From Radiobacillus kanasensis (GTDB taxonomy: Bacteria > Bacillota > Bacilli > Bacillales > Amphibacillaceae), in the NCBI RefSeq assembly GCF_021049245.1, contig NZ_CP088020.1, forward strand, positions 502,001 to 566,000: a stretch of DNA of 64,000 nt. Reading direction: 5' to 3'. The translations under genes and the position numbers were made by a program. Of the stretch, positions 45,718-53,025 are shown one piece after another (the first letter of the stretch is position 1; every line of letters starts with the position of its first letter). Under the pieces are notes generated by a model that was not told where the DNA came from, ran no database searches, and saw nothing but the letters and a program-made list of their open reading frames with translations.

Positions 45718-46866
45718 TTGAGAAAGAAGCTAATACTAATGTTGGTTGGACTTCTTCTTTTAACGAGCTGTGCACCATCCTTTGATAATTCAGAAGAAGA
45801 TATTGTAGAAGAAAATCAAGATCAAACCAATCAAGAGACGGCGATAATCCCTAGCTACAGCTTATCGGAAGAAAACTACCGTGTGATTCTACCATACAAA
45901 CTTGGAAAAGCAAGAGGGGTTATTGTAAATCAGGTGTTCAACAGGTTGGATATAGATGAACTAGAGGAAGGGTTAAAACGTCATTCTAAAGATGTCTTTG
46001 AACCAGACAAATATTTCTTTCAAGAAGGACAATACTTAACAGAAGATATTGTTTATGAATGGCTAGGCTCTGCAAAACCTGATGAAGAAGGAAATCAAGG
46101 GTTAAATCCACCATTAGCAGAAAATGCAACGAAGAAACAACATCAGGAGAACCCGAGATACCTGTCCCACATTTTGGAGCAGGATTACTTAATGAAGACC
46201 GGTGAGGATCGTGTTGTGTTAGGTGGTGTATCCATCGGACTTGCCATGAAGTCTGTGTATCGATTCCAGACAGAAATCGGTGGGCCCTACTTTTTCGAAA
46301 AGATATCCAAACAAGAAATGCTAAGTAAAGGCCAGGAGCTAGCTCAGAAAATCGTGGAGCGGATGAGAAAAATGGAAGGCTTGTCAAAGGTACCTATCAT
46401 GGTTTCCTTGTACCGTGAAGAAGCACAAGACTCCATGGTGCCAGGGAACTTTGTAGCAAAAACGGTTGTGGAAGAAGGGAGTTCATCTGTAGGAGATTGG
46501 GAAGAAATAAACGAAAAGCATGTATTATTCCCATCTGATGAAGCGTCTGAAAACTACAAAGAGGATGCGAACAACCTGTCCTTCTTTGAACAAGATATTG
46601 CGGAATACTTCCCGAATTATACAAGCGTGATTGGAAAAGGATTCTATGTGAATGATGAGTTACAGAAACTAACGATTGAGATTCCAATCCAGTTTAATGG
46701 GAAAGCAGAAGTAGTTGGTTTTTCGCAATACGTGTATGGTTTGGTAGTGGAAGGGTTTCAGCCACACTATGACCTAGAAATAAACATTACATCAGGAGAT
46801 CAGCAAGAAAGTCTCATAACGAGAGAAGCTGGTGAAGAGGAGCCGCAGGTTCATATTTACCATTAG
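45718..46866 (+). CDS. camS: CamS-family sex-pheromone-type lipoprotein (YerH)
   Basis: A 382-residue exported lipoprotein. The signal helix K-L-I-L-M-L-V-G-L-L-L-L ends in the lipobox L-T-S-C (Cys about 19). An acidic linker follows, then the CamS domain to the end. In Staphylococcus and Enterococcus, processing of the CamS-type leader releases the cAM373-like peptide; in Bacillus the family is called YerH and its role is open. I chose TTG 45718 (AGGGAG 8 bases upstream); GTG 45709 overlaps that site. It ends the pcrB operon. Confidence 0.9.
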   Translation: MRKKLILMLVGLLLLTSCAPSFDNSEEDIVEENQDQTNQETAIIPSYSLSEENYRVILPYKLGKARGVIVNQVFNRLDIDELEEGLKRHSKDVFEPDKYFFQEGQYLTEDIVYEWLGSAKPDEEGNQGLNPPLAENATKKQHQENPRYLSHILEQDYLMKTGEDRVVLGGVSIGLAMKSVYRFQTEIGGPYFFEKISKQEMLSKGQELAQKIVERMRKMEGLSKVPIMVSLYREEAQDSMVPGNFVAKTVVEEGSSSVGDWEEINEKHVLFPSDEASENYKEDANNLSFFEQDIAEYFPNYTSVIGKGFYVNDELQKLTIEIPIQFNGKAEVVGFSQYVYGLVVEGFQPHYDLEINITSGDQQESLITREAGEEEPQVHIYH

Positions 46867-46980
46867 AAAAAGAGGTCTGAAGTCTCTTGTGAATTATTTT
46901 TTGGTATGGGATTATATAGTGGTGGTTCAGAATGCCCACTAGCCAAGGGCTTTTCAAGTGAGGATAAAAGGAAATAAATT

Positions 46981-47016
46981 ACCCCCTTAACTATGTAAAA
47001 TAGGTAAGGGGTTTCT
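46981..47016 (+). terminator. Terminator after camS
   Basis: A stem of ACCCCCTTAACTA (46981-46993) with TAGGTAAGGGGT (47001-47012), one bulge, and TTTCTT after it. Confidence 0.75.
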
Positions 47017-47101
47017 TAGGTTTAGGAAAGTTAGAAAGTTTCTCGTGTATTAAGGGGTGAAATTAGTTCATAACTTTCCCAATATGCATAACGCGGAAAT
47101 G

Positions 47102-47110
47102 TGATATGAT
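47102..47110 (+). promoter_or_regulatory. Extended -10 promoter of the RNPP regulator gene
   Basis: TG at 47102-47103 followed by A and TATGAT (47105-47110), about 100 bp before the regulator. The region at -35 is not close to consensus. Confidence 0.5.
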
Positions 47111-47154
47111 AGATTTAAGAAAGAAGTACAAGTCAAGCATTGGTACTATCGTTC

Positions 47155-47168
47155 TAGTTTCGAAACTA
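47155..47168 (+). promoter_or_regulatory. 14-bp perfect palindrome, candidate operator of the RNPP regulator
   Basis: TAGTTTCGAAACTA is a perfect palindrome between the promoter and the start codon of the HTH-TPR regulator. Its position suits autoregulation. It does not match the PlcR box. Confidence 0.5.
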
Positions 47169-47212
47169 TGAAGTAGGCAGAAAGCCTGTATGAGTTTAGA
47201 GGTGGACAATCC

Positions 47213-48478
47213 ATGGAAATTGGTCCTTTTATAAAACTACATAGAATTAAACAAAACATGACGCAAGAGGACTTGGCAGACGGTATCGTATCCGAATCCT
47301 ATCTTTCCAAAATTGAAAATCAAAAAACAACAGCAAGTCCAGATGTAATTAATCTACTTTGTTCCAGACTTGGCATTCAACTTAACAAAGAAGATGAATT
47401 AAACCTAAACGGGCAGTGCCAAGAATGGTTCGACATGCTTTTTGAGGTGAACAGCAAAGAACAGATCACTGAAAAGTATGAAGAACTGAAAGTCCTCGTA
47501 GAATCTCATTTATCTGATATGCAAGTATTGTTTGAGATTCATAAGATTAGGTATTTTTTGATCCTAGGTCAGAAACAAAACGCACTACAGCAAATTAATA
47601 ATCTAAAAGATTTATCAGAAACATTTAATAGCGTTCAACAGTATTATTGGCTAAAGTTTAATGGGAACTATAATTCAGTAATTGGTGACCAACATTCCGC
47701 TTTAAGGTTTTATCAGTTGGCCGAGGAAAAGTATGGTCATAGTGATATATCTGAATCTGAGTTTGCAGATTTAAGATATACGATGTCAGTTACTCACAGT
47801 AAACTAAGAAACACATTGGAAGTTATTGACTATGCTAAAAAAGCATTAGAAGACTTTAGTAAACAATACAATTTTCGAAGATGTGCTCAATGCCACTTGT
47901 TATTAGGAATCTCATATCGAAGAATTAAAATTTATGATAAAGCCGAGAAAAATTATAACCTTGCGCAGCACTTAGCAAAACTAAACAATGACCAACAAAC
48001 CATTGCTATTACTCATCAAAATCTCGGGTATTTACATTCGACTAAAGGTGAATCAGAGAAAGCTATCTTTTTCTTTAAAAAAGTAGTAGAGGATGGTCAT
48101 AGTGATACTGTTGTACTTATTAAAGGGATGGCTTCCATTGTAAAAGAATACTATAATTTGCAAAAGTATGACGAAGCGATGGAAATGGTCAACGCAGGGC
48201 TCCATACATTAGAACAGTTAGAGTGGATTGAGAATTATCAGCTTTATTTCTATGAGCTTAAAACCTACCATGCAGTTTTGACTCACAACAAAGAAAAATT
48301 TGAGTCCGTAGTCATAAAAGAATTTCTACCTTATTTAAAAAAACAGAAACACTATGCTGAGCTAGTATCTTATGCAACCATGGCAGGCAAGCATTATGAA
48401 GACTTATTAAAATATAAAAGTGCTTCAGAATACTATAAACTTGCCATTTCAACCTATGAAGAATTAATTAAAATTTAA
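47213..48478 (+). CDS. RNPP-type (PlcR/NprR-like) HTH-TPR regulator, probable peptide receptor
   Basis: A 421-residue cytosolic regulator. Residues 5-60 form an XRE-type HTH: I-K-L-H-R-I-K-Q-N-M-T-Q-E-D-L-A, then S-E-S-Y-L-S-K-I-E-N. The rest (about 75-421) is made of helical TPR-like repeats, for example Q-H-S-A-L-R-F-Y-Q-L-A (about 161) and Y-D-K-A-E-K-N-Y-N-L-A (about 243). RNPP receptors with this form bind small imported peptides in the TPR groove and change DNA binding. The gene directly downstream, 14 bases away, encodes a secreted repeat-peptide precursor, the typical receptor-pheromone order. The HTH rules out a plain Rap phosphatase. Binding of HDAEPSIFS-type peptides is inference. 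Confidence 0.88.
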   Translation: MEIGPFIKLHRIKQNMTQEDLADGIVSESYLSKIENQKTTASPDVINLLCSRLGIQLNKEDELNLNGQCQEWFDMLFEVNSKEQITEKYEELKVLVESHLSDMQVLFEIHKIRYFLILGQKQNALQQINNLKDLSETFNSVQQYYWLKFNGNYNSVIGDQHSALRFYQLAEEKYGHSDISESEFADLRYTMSVTHSKLRNTLEVIDYAKKALEDFSKQYNFRRCAQCHLLLGISYRRIKIYDKAEKNYNLAQHLAKLNNDQQTIAITHQNLGYLHSTKGESEKAIFFFKKVVEDGHSDTVVLIKGMASIVKEYYNLQKYDEAMEMVNAGLHTLEQLEWIENYQLYFYELKTYHAVLTHNKEKFESVVIKEFLPYLKKQKHYAELVSYATMAGKHYEDLLKYKSASEYYKLAISTYEELIKI

Positions 48479-48492
48479 GGAGGAGTTTTAAA

Positions 48493-48864
48493 ATGAAAAA
48501 GAATATCTTAAAAGCTGTATTCGCTGTCGCTCTAGTAGGGTTGGCTTTATTGGGACTTGGAACTTTAGGAAGTGTTACTGCTCACGATGCAGAACCATCT
48601 ATTTTCTCTTATGAGCTTGGACATGATGCAGAACCATCTATTTTCTCTCATGAACTTGGACATGACGCAGAGCCATCCATCTTCTCTTTTGAGTTAGGTC
48701 ATGATGCAGAGCCGTCTATCTTCTCATACTTTAAATTTGGTCATGATGCAGAACCATCTATTTTCTCTCATGAACTTGGACATGACGCAGAGCCATCCAT
48801 CTTCTCCTTTGAATTAGGCCATGATGCAGAACCATCAATATTCTCAATCGGAAACACTCTTTAA
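48493..48864 (+). CDS. Secreted multi-copy signal peptide precursor, seven HDAEPSIFS repeats
   Basis: A 123-residue preproprotein. Residues 1-30 are a signal peptide: M-K-K-N, a hydrophobic core of A, V, L and G, and V-T-A at the cut site. Repeat 1 begins with His31, immediately after the predicted cut. Seven identical nonapeptides HDAEPSIFS start at residues 31, 44, 57, 70, 84, 97 and 110. The linkers are YELG, HELG, FELG, YFKFG, HELG and FELG, and the tail is IGNTL. AAGGAGG precedes the ATG. It lies directly behind an RNPP-type receptor gene and is followed by a terminator. I infer a pheromone precursor cut in the linkers by extracellular proteases, with re-uptake by an Opp transporter. Alternatives are a multi-core antimicrobial or a RiPP, but no modifying enzyme is nearby. 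Confidence 0.9.
   Translation: MKKNILKAVFAVALVGLALLGLGTLGSVTAHDAEPSIFSYELGHDAEPSIFSHELGHDAEPSIFSFELGHDAEPSIFSYFKFGHDAEPSIFSHELGHDAEPSIFSFELGHDAEPSIFSIGNTL
48583..48846 (+). repeat. Seven tandem 39/42-bp repeats in the precursor gene, with a 120-bp duplicated block
   Basis: The repeat starts are 48583, 48622, 48661, 48700, 48742, 48781 and 48820. Bases 48622-48686 equal 48742-48806 exactly (65 bases, offset 120), which marks a recent duplication of a three-unit block (units 2-4 to 5-7). Confidence 0.95.
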
Positions 48865-48936
48865 TAACTAACGTTTATTTCAATGCCTCAAGCATTGATC
48901 TAATATAACCACTACAACCTAATGAATCTTTCTTTG

Positions 48937-48969
48937 CCCGATATACATCATGTATCTCGGGTCTTTTTT
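48937..48969 (+). terminator. Terminator of the receptor-precursor operon
   Basis: CCCGATATACA with TGTATCTCGGG (one T-C mismatch), a 3-base loop, then TC and seven T residues. A smaller hairpin lies at about 48880-48898. Confidence 0.85.
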
Positions 48970-49297
48970 TACCCAAAATCATTCTATGATTTATAAGTAT
49001 CTTTTATGTCAAAAATAAGTAGGTTTATTCTAATATTTTTCGGGGTATTGAATAGGGGGCTATGTCACATATGAACATATTCTATCGAAATTTCTGTTGT
49101 TCCATCCTTCTTGATCGGTTCCTAAGATTAATAGGTATGGGACGAGGGTTGGGTACATAGATATTCCTTGTGGGGGGCAAGTCCCGATTTTTAAGTATGT
49201 TATACTTAAAGACGAATGTGCCTATTTCTAGCCTTTCATTACTAAGTAATATTGCTAGAAATTTGCATATAAATAGTAAAAAGGAGGGATGTAAGGT
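48970..49297. other. Intergenic region upstream of the proline symporter operon
   Basis: 328 bases without a credible gene; a frame at 49170-49358 has no ribosome binding site and runs into the small accessory gene. A perfect 9-bp hairpin lies at 49190-49210 (TTTAAGTAT-GTT-ATACTTAAA), about 90 bases before the small gene, and may be an operator or leader hairpin. The last bases hold AAGGAGGG. Confidence 0.5.
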
Positions 49298-49402
49298 ATG
49301 GATTATGCAATTGCGGGTGCAACTTGGTTCTGGTTATTTGTGCCTATGCCTATATTGATCATATTATCCATTATTTCGTTATTTACTGAGAGGAGAGAAT
49401 AA
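49298..49402 (+). CDS. Symporter small accessory membrane protein
   Basis: A 34-residue peptide with one membrane helix rich in W, F, I and L (about residues 8-28) and a basic end, T-E-R-R-E. GGAGGG lies 9 bases before the ATG. It stops 6 bases before putP, so both are co-translated. Small one-helix proteins directly before sodium:solute symporters are a known arrangement. A role as a subunit or stabiliser of PutP is inference. Confidence 0.75.
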   Translation: MDYAIAGATWFWLFVPMPILIILSIISLFTERRE

Positions 49403-49408
49403 GAGACT

Positions 49409-50926
49409 ATGACTGGCGCAACTTTAATTACGTTTATTGTTTATTTAATTGGTATGTTATTAATTGGTGTCGTATCTTATCGACTAACGAGTAATTTATC
49501 AGATTATGTTTTAGGAGGAAGACGTTTAGGACCTGGTGTAGCAGCGTTAAGTGCTGGGGCATCGGATATGAGTGGTTGGTTACTACTTGGTCTTCCTGGA
49601 GCTGTATATGCAGCAGGTATGTCGGAAGCATGGATGGCAATTGGTTTATCCATCGGTGCCTATTTAAACTGGCAGTTTGTAGCACGTCCTTTACGTGTGT
49701 ACACAGAGGTTTCGAATAACTCCATCACAATCCCTGACTTCTTAGAAAATCGTTTCCGCGATAAATCTCACATTCTTCGGGTGATTTCAGCACTCGTCAT
49801 TTTGTTATTTTTCACATTTTATACATCATCCGGTATGGTTGGTGGCGCAAAGCTATTTGAAGCGTCCTTTGGTTTATCGTATAACCAAGCATTGTGGATT
49901 GGTGCTATTGTTATTGTATCCTATACATTCCTAGGTGGTTTCCTAGCTGTTAGTTGGACGGACTTTATTCAAGGTATTTTAATGTTCTTAGCACTTATCG
50001 TAGTTCCAATTCGTGCAATCTTTGTCATTGGTGGCTGGGATGCAACGGTTCAAGCGGTTGGTAATATTGACCCTAGTCACTTAAACATGGTAGCTGGTGT
50101 CGGTGGTTTAGCCATCGTGTCTTCCATGGCGTGGGGACTTGGATATTTCGGTCAACCACATATCATAACTCGTTTTATGGCGTTACGTTCGCCTGATGAT
50201 GTTCCAAAAGCGAAATTCATCGGTACAACTTGGATGATTTTAGGTCTTTATGGAGCTATCTTCACTGGTTTTGCAGGATTAGCTTTCATCAGCACACAAG
50301 ATGTTGGAGTACTTTCTCAGTTCGGTATTGAGGTTGTAAACAATGAAGCTGGCATACAAGTGCTGAGCGATCCAGAGAAAATCTTTATTGCATTTTCCCA
50401 AATTTTATTTGACCCAATCATTGCAGGTATTTTATTAGCAGCTATTTTGTCTGCCATCATGAGTACGATTGACTCCCAGTTGCTTGTATCTTCTTCTGCG
50501 GTTGCGGAAGATTTCTATAAAGCGATCTTAAGAAAAGAAGCTTCTGAAAAAGAATTAGTTTGGATTGGTCGTTTTGCAGTACTTGTCATTGCGATTATAG
50601 CAACCTTACTAGCATCAAATCCAGATAGTTCTGTATTATCACTAGTAAGCTATGCGTGGGCTGGTTTTGGTGGTGCGTTTGGACCAATCATCATCCTGTC
50701 CCTATTCTGGAAAGGCATGACGAGAAATGGTGCCTTAGCCGGTATTATTGTCGGTGCCTTAACGGTTATTATTTGGGGAGATTTCCTATCAGGTGGAATT
50801 TTCGACCTTTATGAAATCGTTCCTGCCTTCATCTTGAACCTAATAGCTTCTGTTGTGGTGAGTTTACTAGGTAAACCATCTAACGAAATGGTGGAAGAGT
50901 TCGAAAAAGCAAAATCAAACTATTAA
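49409..50926 (+). CDS. putP: Sodium/proline symporter (PutP/OpuE family, SSS)
   Basis: A 505-residue SSS transporter with about 13 membrane helices. Family motifs: D-Y-V-L-G-G-R-R-L-G-P (about 32-42), L-S-A-G-A-S-D-M-S-G-W-L-L-L-G-L-P-G (about 47-64, part of the Na+ site), G-Y-F-G-Q-P-H-I-I-T-R-F-M-A (about 245) and M-S-T-I-D-S-Q-L-L-V-S-S-S-A-V-A-E-D (about 350). It imports proline with Na+, for nutrition or as an osmoprotectant. In B. subtilis, opuE lies at the same point before gatCAB. RBS GAGAGGAGAG. Confidence 0.93.
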   Translation: MTGATLITFIVYLIGMLLIGVVSYRLTSNLSDYVLGGRRLGPGVAALSAGASDMSGWLLLGLPGAVYAAGMSEAWMAIGLSIGAYLNWQFVARPLRVYTEVSNNSITIPDFLENRFRDKSHILRVISALVILLFFTFYTSSGMVGGAKLFEASFGLSYNQALWIGAIVIVSYTFLGGFLAVSWTDFIQGILMFLALIVVPIRAIFVIGGWDATVQAVGNIDPSHLNMVAGVGGLAIVSSMAWGLGYFGQPHIITRFMALRSPDDVPKAKFIGTTWMILGLYGAIFTGFAGLAFISTQDVGVLSQFGIEVVNNEAGIQVLSDPEKIFIAFSQILFDPIIAGILLAAILSAIMSTIDSQLLVSSSAVAEDFYKAILRKEASEKELVWIGRFAVLVIAIIATLLASNPDSSVLSLVSYAWAGFGGAFGPIIILSLFWKGMTRNGALAGIIVGALTVIIWGDFLSGGIFDLYEIVPAFILNLIASVVVSLLGKPSNEMVEEFEKAKSNY

Positions 50927-51042: not shown

Positions 51043-51943
51043 ATTTGTGAAATATAAAAGATGTTTTAGTTACGTTATTTTTATATCTGCTTTCATTTCA
51101 CGACTTTATCATATTTTAGGTAGTTTTGATTTGTTTAATCTCTATCTCTTCGATAATAATGAGTAAGCGGGTCTGGATCAGTCAGTTAGATTTAAAGCCT
51201 TCCATAATAATATCATCCAGGACTAGCGCAGCTCCTTCATTTGAGTAAGAAAGCAAATTCTACCACATTTCTGCTCGTATTCAAGATTAAGTCCTTGTTT
51301 CTTGATTCTATTATTTTTGGCCTGGTGCTATACCGTTTCTTAAATTATCTAGGATGTTTTCCCCGCTCTTAGCATTTTCTTTAAAGTGTCAATCGCAACC
51401 CTTCGTTTTTCCTATAGCTTCGTAATGCTTCAGTAGTTAAACAAGCGAATGGAATCAAGGCTTCGTGTATCTCATATGCACTGGTACTATACTTTGTAAA
51501 TCCGCCTCTAGCTCTAGAATCAAATCTTTAATGCTGTTGTTGAAGGATAAGTGAACCACGCATAGTTTTCTAAAGTGGAATGCTATGGGATATAGATGAT
51601 TCTATTGTAACCTTGTTTCCTGGTAATTAGCTAATCTATGAAACTATTATTTCATAAAAAACTACATGATTATAAGGAGTTATCGCTCTATTAAAGTCTC
51701 TTACTAAATTTTTTGAAGCTTAACATTCTCGATTAGTTATAACCAGATTCATAATTTCATATAAAGCCCATTTGGATAGTATATCGAGAGCGAAAATGTT
51801 TTTTAATTGTTAAATACTAGGAAAGTAGGAAAACTAAAGTCTAGTTGTTGGAGTTTATAAGAAAATATTTCCCAATAAAAAATCTAATAGTATATGGTAA
51901 AATAAGGATATGACAACCTAATAATGGAATTGGAGGAATTTAA
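51043..51943. other. Gene-free region, probably decayed coding DNA
   Basis: 901 bases without an intact frame. On the minus strand at about 51180-51560 several short coding-like stretches appear in changing frames, which suggests a decayed gene that I cannot identify. The rest is AT-rich. A GGAGG site at the end serves the next gene. Confidence 0.4.
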
Positions 51944-52450
51944 ATGATATTAAAAGGTGAATTCTTATCTAAAGTGCTTGTGATTGGTTTTACCTCTATT
52001 ATATTATTAATCATAGGTTTTAGTAGTGATGTTGAAGCTTCGTCCATGGATGATGTTGAAGAGTTAAACGCTACCGTAATTGATGAGCCACAAAAGGTTT
52101 CTAATGAACCAGGTACCTTCGCAAATGCGGATCCTGAACCTGGATATTATGGAACTTACTATGACTTTGGGAAAACTAGTTTTTCTAACTATGTTTGGGT
52201 CAGAGGAGGATATGCGTTTTACAATCTGGATAGTATGGATCTAGAAAAATTAGATACAAATCAGATTTCTGCAATGGTCTATGATACAAGTGGAAGGTAC
52301 TACGGAAAGGTTGTTTCTGCTAGAAGAGCAACATGGCAAAATTTTAATTTTTCTCTAATTGCTCCTACTGGAAGAAGTTACAAAATTAAGTTAGTTAATA
52401 ATGATGGTGGAACAGCTGATATCTTGCAAGGGACTATTTACTACAATTAA
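51944..52450 (+). CDS. Secreted protein of unknown function
   Basis: A 168-residue protein. Residues 1-32 form a signal peptide with a long hydrophobic core and a V-E-A cleavage site. The mature part begins acidic and then turns rich in Y, G and aromatic residues (P-G-Y-Y-G-T-Y-Y-D-F-G, about 65-75), with a beta-strand pattern to the end, Q-G-T-I-Y-Y-N. I do not recognise a family. GGAGG lies 7-8 bases before the ATG. It is flanked by decayed DNA and ends in a shared terminator. Confidence 0.75.
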   Translation: MILKGEFLSKVLVIGFTSIILLIIGFSSDVEASSMDDVEELNATVIDEPQKVSNEPGTFANADPEPGYYGTYYDFGKTSFSNYVWVRGGYAFYNLDSMDLEKLDTNQISAMVYDTSGRYYGKVVSARRATWQNFNFSLIAPTGRSYKIKLVNNDGGTADILQGTIYYN

Positions 52451-52521: not shown

Positions 52522-52989
52522 TCAATTTAATGAAAGACGAGATTTAATTCTTTTTAATAGGAAAGGCGATGAAAGGTATAAAATTCCACAACTTATTAAA
52601 ATACCTAGCAGAATTTTAATTCCTAATGAATAGGGCTTACCTATAAAAAAGGCAGTGATGATAAAAAATACTCCGATTAATATAAGAGAACCATTAAGCT
52701 TTTTTCTGTTTCTTCTAAAAATGAGAAATATAGTTAGTGTTATTAAGTAAATTAAAAGAACTATAAAGCAAATGGGGAAAATAGGTTTGTATTTCAGTGA
52801 GTAAATGAATAAATCTAACTGTGAAATGTCACTGGGAGTTGTTATCTCTTTCCCTAGCAGCTGTGTAAAAAATGCAGATTCCTTCCATGATTCCGAATAG
52901 ATAAATATATCACTTCCCTCATAAAACGAAATAAATCCGCAGAAAGTTAAAAAAATAAAAAGCAAACAATATTGTATTATATAGTACAT
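52522..52989 (-). CDS. DUF4306-like membrane protein (YjdJ type)
   Basis: A 155-residue protein with four membrane helices: about 3-22, 68-88, 99-118 and 121-140. The first loop has F-Y-E-G-S followed by a W-K-E-S segment, and I-S-Q-L-D-L-F-I-Y, which match what I remember of B. subtilis YjdJ (DUF4306). I chose ATG 52989 because GAGGG lies about 10 bases upstream; the frame opens at 53025 without a site. Function unknown. Confidence 0.7.
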   Translation of the reverse strand: MYYIIQYCLLFIFLTFCGFISFYEGSDIFIYSESWKESAFFTQLLGKEITTPSDISQLDLFIYSLKYKPIFPICFIVLLIYLITLTIFLIFRRNRKKLNGSLILIGVFFIITAFFIGKPYSLGIKILLGILISCGILYLSSPFLLKRIKSRLSLN

Positions 52990-53025
52990 TTCAAGCACAC
53001 CCTCATCATTCAAAATATTATTCAT

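Follow-up and report, generated by a model that had tools for sequence, protein, structure and literature searches.

A predicted tandem-pheromone precursor, its NprR/Rap-like receptor and a candidate two-box operator in Radiobacillus kanasensis

The receptor-precursor operon and its seven peptide units

We analyzed a 64,000-nucleotide stretch of the Radiobacillus kanasensis genome (4.03 Mb, two contigs), referred to here as the window, which carries a gene for a helix-turn-helix and tetratricopeptide repeat (HTH-TPR) receptor and, directly downstream, a gene for a predicted pheromone precursor with seven identical peptide units. The receptor is an NprR/Rap-like protein of 421 amino acids (aa), judged by its open reading frame (ORF), Pfam domains and predicted fold, and is encoded at 47213-48478 (+ strand). 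The ORF of the 123-aa precursor follows at 48493-48864 (+), after a gap of 14 bases in which GGAGGAGT (48479-48486, +) is the putative ribosome-binding site. Coordinates and ORFs agree with a preliminary description of this DNA, and Pfam recognized both the HTH (HTH_3, E value 8.4e-11) and the TPR domains that it had named. The HTH is strongly conserved, and the receptor is 74% identical to protein P0003 of Radiobacillus deserti; the receptor found in a genome of the same genus is likewise 74% identical. A predicted intrinsic terminator lies at 48936-48970 (+), with a hairpin at 48936-48962 followed by seven T (-12.8 kcal/mol, z -5.0), and was not listed by a consensus terminator scan. The locus is flanked by ligA-camS on one side and putP-gatCAB on the other (genes recognized by eye).

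The precursor opens with a hydrophobic run that points to a signal peptide of 30 residues (48493-48582, +). Cleavage sites of signal peptides follow the (-3,-1) rule, which together with the local motif would place the cut between VTA and HD; the signal peptide proposed earlier is thereby supported by the hydrophobic run, and its end exactly before unit 1 depends on this motif and rule. The nonapeptide HDAEPSIFS then occurs at 48583-48609, 48622-48648, 48661-48687, 48700-48726, 48742-48768, 48781-48807 and 48820-48846 (units 1 to 7, all +), and the last unit is followed by IGNTL and the stop codon. The linkers read, in order, YELG, HELG, FELG, YFKFG, HELG and FELG, so that the array of identical nonapeptides with linkers of 4-5 residues ending in Gly was seen again, and Tandem Repeats Finder detected it independently (48586-48845, period 39; 48617-48846, period 120, 92% match). 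The 92% match of the 120-base, three-unit repeat suggests that a three-unit block was copied late.

Within the 8-residue core, comparison of the 21 unit pairs, which are not independent, gave 0 nonsynonymous differences over ~385 sites and 71 synonymous differences over ~119 sites, and the nonsynonymous proportion (pN) of the five equal-length linkers was 0.148. In eight multi-copy precursors (of fifteen then known), core pN was 0 to 0.07 and the synonymous proportion (pS) 0.4 to 1.2, the non-zero pN values stemming partly from split serine codons. The core thus differs between units only synonymously, and the peptide units are therefore under selection.

The identical stretch need not, and may not, equal the mature signal. 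The NprX heptapeptide has been published as SKPDIVG (PMC5641580). Because what single-copy relatives share is a shorter core centered on EP, and SKPDIVG aligns to AEPSIFS, the mature signal probably lies near AEPSIFS, and HDAEPSIFS, earlier taken as the released signal, is probably not the active form. AEPSIFS fits the pattern xxPx[IV]x[SG] of SKPDIVG by eye, in a stretch too short for a statistic.

Receptor family, receptor class and published tandem pheromones

A protein search with the precursor as query yielded a sole relative (P0001, three copies), and the family evidence was therefore drawn via the receptor. Matches of the precursor to Pfam and NCBIfam models (DUF7877, reprolysins and others) were under the cut-off and were rejected. 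Genome searches gave a receptor match of any strength in 76 of 100 genomes (own included) and orthologues at E <= 1e-90 in 99 of 159 family genomes; with the best 80 of 352 relatives from named genomes and further fetched loci, this made 117 distinct orthologous receptors. A precursor gene was searched for within 45 bases of the receptor end, and secretion was judged by hydrophobicity and charge only. A precursor with a related core lies directly downstream of 102 of the 117 receptors. The majority, 85, are single-copy and 42-54 residues long, and 17 carry 2-10 copies: two have two, seven have three (one of them partly unread, and so with at least three), two have five, three have six, two have seven and one has ten. 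Homologues of the regulator thus co-occur with precursors of one to ten copies, which together with the predicted fold of NprR and Rap bears out the earlier assignment to the receptor-pheromone pairs of the RNPP/RRNPPA type.

The core was located by pattern in 92 precursors; it has Glu before the proline in 70 and reads EPS[IV][FL] in 48. Eight of 100 precursors gave no core by pattern and were excluded from the count on receptor residue K197 that is weighed below, and the core strings of two loci (L092 and L166) were misplaced by the pattern and are non-Glu either way. On the receptor tree, a quick tree from which direction was not inferred, the single- and multi-copy states need at least six changes, all forced by supported branches. 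The window array sits in a supported clade of 25 receptors, which also has arrays with FEL-like linkers in Sediminibacillus, Virgibacillus senegalensis and Terrihalobacillus, plus single-copy and precursor-less members; a seven-copy MNVEPSILS precursor (L129) and a ten-copy MDKHPGVL precursor (L144) lie elsewhere in the tree. Related species therefore offer a natural series of one circuit with 1, 2, 3, 5, 6, 7 and 10 signal copies, which lets the purpose of tandem pheromones (signal yield, timing or protease gating) be probed in one receptor family. Receptors with no detectable precursor include those of Aquibacillus (L077, L080, L081, L082) and of the Oceanobacillus sojae group (L102-L105, L109, L110, L188), which are possible listeners or repurposed regulators.

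By its sequence and modeled fold, the receptor appears to belong with NprR and Rap. Its size and TPR superhelix lie within the RRNPPA receptor range of 250-500 aa, and the HTH plus Rap-like 3-helix-bundle/TPR architecture of the NprR subfamily is present, with structure matches to 5dbk and 4gpk. The Rap phosphatase class was rejected in that it expects no HTH, yet HTH_3 is present, and the PlcR class in that it expects a shorter receptor (~280 aa, as the 3u3w chain) with a PlcR-type TPR, a description that the receptor does not fit. W79 of NprR corresponds to W72 here, conserved in 117 of 117 receptors, and the NprR tetramer residues are kept as well (Y223 as Y219 in 117 of 117, F225 as F221 in 113 of 117). 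The system thus resembles NprR-NprX of the Bacillus cereus group in its HTH and Rap-like TPR fold, its short gap to a secreted precursor gene, its conserved tetramer residues and, by eye, the alignment of the two peptides around the proline. It differs in having seven copies rather than one, in Glu in place of the peptide Lys and Lys in place of receptor H201, and at the other peptide-contact and three of the Spo0F-contact residues. The nprR gene lies by a protease gene; the locus here, between ligA-camS and putP-gatCAB, has no such neighbor.

Tandem pheromones are already in print. A duplicated NprX was noted in 2016 (PMC5199041), and an mBio paper of 2022, which lists Virgibacillus with NprR, describes repeats in every atypically large NprR propeptide (17 of 17), with up to six identical copies (PMC9765709); compared by description, the sequences not being in the text, the seven copies here and ten in L144 exceed six. 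A PLoS Biol paper of 2024 (PMC11343458) mentions up to eight pheromone copies and describes tests of processing in two Rap systems (phi105 and phi3T), including cutting by WprA, Bpr and NprE. The L144 precursor (184 aa, ten MDKHPGVL units) exceeds those eight. As with these duplicated Rap-Phr pheromones, the copies here are identical or near-identical and more conserved than the linkers; unlike here, Rap of phi105 and phi3T has no HTH, and the peptides differ. NprR-NprX systems on the Priestia koreensis FS-1 plasmid are so named in PMC10075063. A receptor on that plasmid, likely one of those meant there, is 32.7% identical to the window receptor and has a precursor directly downstream with the core EKEPGPLK, which unlike that of the window is single-copy and plasmid-borne. 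The strict set of RRNPP_detector covers precursors of 10-100 aa (PMC10075063); those of more than 100 residues fall outside it, and long tandem precursors are therefore easily missed.

In a literature search, HDAEPSIFS, DAEPSIFS, AEPSIFS and EPSIFS were not found as peptides, although two engineering papers contain the letters by coincidence. On quorum sensing in Radiobacillus and NprR in Virgibacillus, searches returned only a species description and PMC9765709, a search for NprR with Oceanobacillus and pheromone returned nothing, and a term search for an NprR operator in PMC3325205 was without match. The earlier statements that no described pheromone of this sequence is known, and that some repeat-bearing Phr precursors had been reported, agree with this literature (Rap systems, PMC11343458), in which repeats are on record for NprR propeptides as well (PMC9765709). 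The novelty claimed for the pair stands for its peptide and falls for its type, which those two papers had published; the pair is a known kind of system whose peptide is new and whose operator we did not find described.

The two-box operator and a predicted target gene

Upstream of the receptor gene lies a two-box operator (47024-47082, +) in which AGGAAAGTTAGAAAGTTT is followed, 51 bases from start to start, by TTTCCCAA. A sigma-70 scan of 46850-49410 was uninformative (6 sites versus 10.3 in shuffles), with no -35/-10 pair at the receptor promoter, and the promoter was therefore located by family comparison. The motif TGnTATnAT begins 30 bases after the TTTCCCAA start in 73 of 83 family promoters, each with the TG, and the predicted extended -10 of the window promoter (TGATATGAT, 47105-47110, +) is at this same place. 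The TTTCCCAA box occurs in 83 of 93 receptor promoters (300 bases upstream). In the family consensus AGGAAAGTAGGAAAGTTTTT precedes ACTTTCCCAATATGAATT, and the box starts lie 50-51 bases from each other at 66 of the 71 sites that were measured. The lack of a -35/-10 pair suggests that the receptor promoter is activator-dependent, and, together with the overlap of the second box with the -35 position, it tips our judgment modestly toward a peptide that would activate rather than repress.

Taken by itself, the 16-base second box matches exactly at 53 places, spread over 52 of 156 family genomes, versus one for the reversed control, and 49 of the 53 lie 67-127 bases upstream of a receptor. Three of the remaining four lie before or in unrelated genes; the fourth (L263) precedes a broken receptor copy, a receptor-like frame that stops after 196 residues, close to a transposase-like gene. 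The strict composite of both boxes has 52 places in 44 of the 156 genomes versus 2 for the reversed pattern; 44 of the 52 belong to receptor promoters and lie 132-198 bases upstream of the receptor, and all 44 genomes have a receptor. Within the own genome the strict composite has two sites, both in the window, one before the receptor and one at 51819-51875. In the window the composite pattern gave 2 matches versus 0 in 100 shuffles, and a matrix from 71 family sites scored these two at 53.9 and 27.7 bits with no other site of at least 12 bits, nor any in 10 mononucleotide shuffles (one strand). From this distribution we consider it likely that the receptor binds the operator, which would give a first handle on what the signal controls, namely the operon that encodes it and a predicted secreted protein encoded nearby. 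Looser searches of the own genome added little. With a single box (ACTTTCCCAATATG, 3 mismatches), 616 sites were found versus 508 in the control, little beyond one exact receptor site. Two further places with GGAAAGT...ACTTTCC were taken as chance, and GGAAA...TTTCCCAA gave 6 sites versus 6 in the control, with only the two that have a full first box retained.

Operator arrangements vary in relatives. Composite-operator-like sites of Heyndrickxia (L084, L095, L106) lie ~430-480 bases upstream of the receptor, not 132-198; doubling of the first box has produced a long palindrome, AACTTTCCTACTTTCCT-N-AGGAAAGTAGGAAAGTT, in Ornithinibacillus and Paucisalibacillus (L044, L046, L055, L062, L064, L067, L073, L097, L108); and six precursor-less Oceanobacillus receptors with upstream sequence keep the TTTCCCAA box in a degenerate setting.

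The second operator of the window (51819-51875, +; box starts 49 apart) is followed by a predicted extended -10 at the same +30 position (TGGTAAAAT, 51898-51903, +) and ends 68 bases before an ORF for a 168-aa protein (51944-52450, +), 3 kb downstream of the receptor-precursor operon. This protein starts with a hydrophobic, signal-like segment and is predicted to be secreted; it had no match in Pfam, NCBIfam or PHROGs, its one relative found is a 183-residue Priestia megaterium protein (39%), and its predicted structure has a pLDDT of 47. On the position of the operator, we lean toward its gene being a target. A 167-aa predicted membrane protein is encoded convergently with it (52522-53025, -) and could be its immunity partner.

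Among eight composite sites away from receptors, of which about two are expected from the control, four (window, L259, L260, L273) stand before genes whose products are predicted to be secreted. One lies before a 238-aa protein of unclear start (L261) and two before membrane proteins (L272, L274); the L275 site, with a spacing of 47, is probably chance and was rejected. In one genus group, five genomes (G021, G161, G163, G164, G165) carry, besides receptor sites, six composite sites upstream of other genes, three of which encode predicted secreted proteins of 272, 191 and 213 aa. The 272-aa protein is weakly geobacillin-26-like (9e-4, below the cut-off), and downstream of the three genes lies a small membrane protein in two cases and a lipoprotein-like protein in one. 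It is tempting to see bacteriocin-immunity pairs at such operator-bearing genes.

The proposed circuit and its alternatives

We propose that the precursor is exported and its units cut out by outer proteases, that the peptide would be re-imported by an Opp-type permease and bound in the receptor TPR groove, and that the peptide-bound receptor would switch its own operon and the gene of the secreted 168-aa protein via the operator; the repeats would raise the signal yield per precursor. That the two genes are a pheromone and its receptor we hold to be very probable, and the overall circuit, switching both its own operon and the 168-aa protein gene, to be probable. More tentatively, and at somewhat less than even chances, the family may form an undescribed quorum-sensing subfamily in ~100 Bacillaceae species, in which an EPSIFS-type pheromone, encoded by some lineages in a polyprotein with as many as ten copies, would self-amplify its operon through a dedicated two-box operator and turn on secreted antagonistic proteins with the same operator.

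Several observations weigh against the circuit. No precursor was detected within the searched range at 15 of the 117 receptor loci, and of 93 receptors 10 are without the TTTCCCAA box, although six of these 10 have a precursor. In an alignment at ~20% identity, none of the seven NprR peptide-contact residues (R126, Y165, W167, H201, N306, D309, R343) is kept in the window receptor, K197 standing at the H201 position, and of the Spo0F-contact residues D107, Y118, E188 and Y223 only Y223 is kept. The association of K197 with the pre-proline residue of the pheromone ignores kinship, and the three columns that ranked above K197 lost significance when tested in independent pairs, with median p values of 0.06, 1 and 0.25. 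The HTH part of the receptor model has a pLDDT of 48-59; for the four remaining models the average was 65-69. The second operator has a weak second box (8.0 bits), and its total of 27.7 bits lies below the median for the family, 57.9 (range -3.6 to 67.5). Since it is the only strict site in the own genome besides that of the receptor, and a second one is missing from most relatives, a wide regulon is unsupported.

The operator could, moreover, belong to another regulator, with only the pheromone-receptor pair being real. The strict form occurs in 44 of 156 genomes while the receptor occurs in 99 of 159, many receptor genomes thus being without it. Against this stand the receptor in every strict-operator genome, the location of 44 of 52 places at receptor promoters and the simpler TTTCCCAA box at 83 of 93 of them; that box is missing in the four precursor-less Aquibacillus receptors (L077, L080, L081, L082), though six other box-less receptors have precursors. 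On balance we find this explanation unlikely.

Less likely still is a mainly Rap-like receptor that binds a partner such as Spo0F without peptide and whose HTH sets only its own level. Rap structures match the predicted fold nearly as well as NprR, most operator-bearing family genomes have the operator only at the receptor's own promoter, and the two activities are combined in B. thuringiensis NprR (PMC4970707); yet the HTH is strongly conserved, and the window receptor has S, K and F where NprR has the Spo0F-binding residues D107, Y118 and E188. We judge it highly improbable that the precursor acts as a secreted repeat peptide in its own right, antimicrobial or structural, and is merely controlled by the receptor. 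The ten units of the longest relative and the predicted secreted, in one case weakly geobacillin-26-like, products of some operator-bearing genes in relatives would suit such an activity, but 85 of 102 precursors are short single-copy forms with a related core, as in NprX, and precursor genes start no more than 45 bases (the range searched) after the receptor end.

Further receptors accompany the pair in some genomes. Each genome of Virgibacillus chiguensis and its kin holds three to five paralogous receptors, whose pheromones have diverged (QPNPT, PPSPT and HPGV; loci L086, L087, L089, L099; genomes G059, G189, G190, G191, G194), a possible case of signal diversification. In the own genome (G000), a second receptor, 37% identical to that of the window (locus L194, 983-2263, +), overlaps a 73-aa precursor (2253-2474, +) whose NEEPDPLG resembles the xKPDIVG pattern of NprX; this pair is likely a separate circuit. 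A third receptor (locus L195, reverse strand) has a 61-aa precursor with two EDEEVGGLK copies, and the own genome therefore seems to hold two tandem-pheromone systems.
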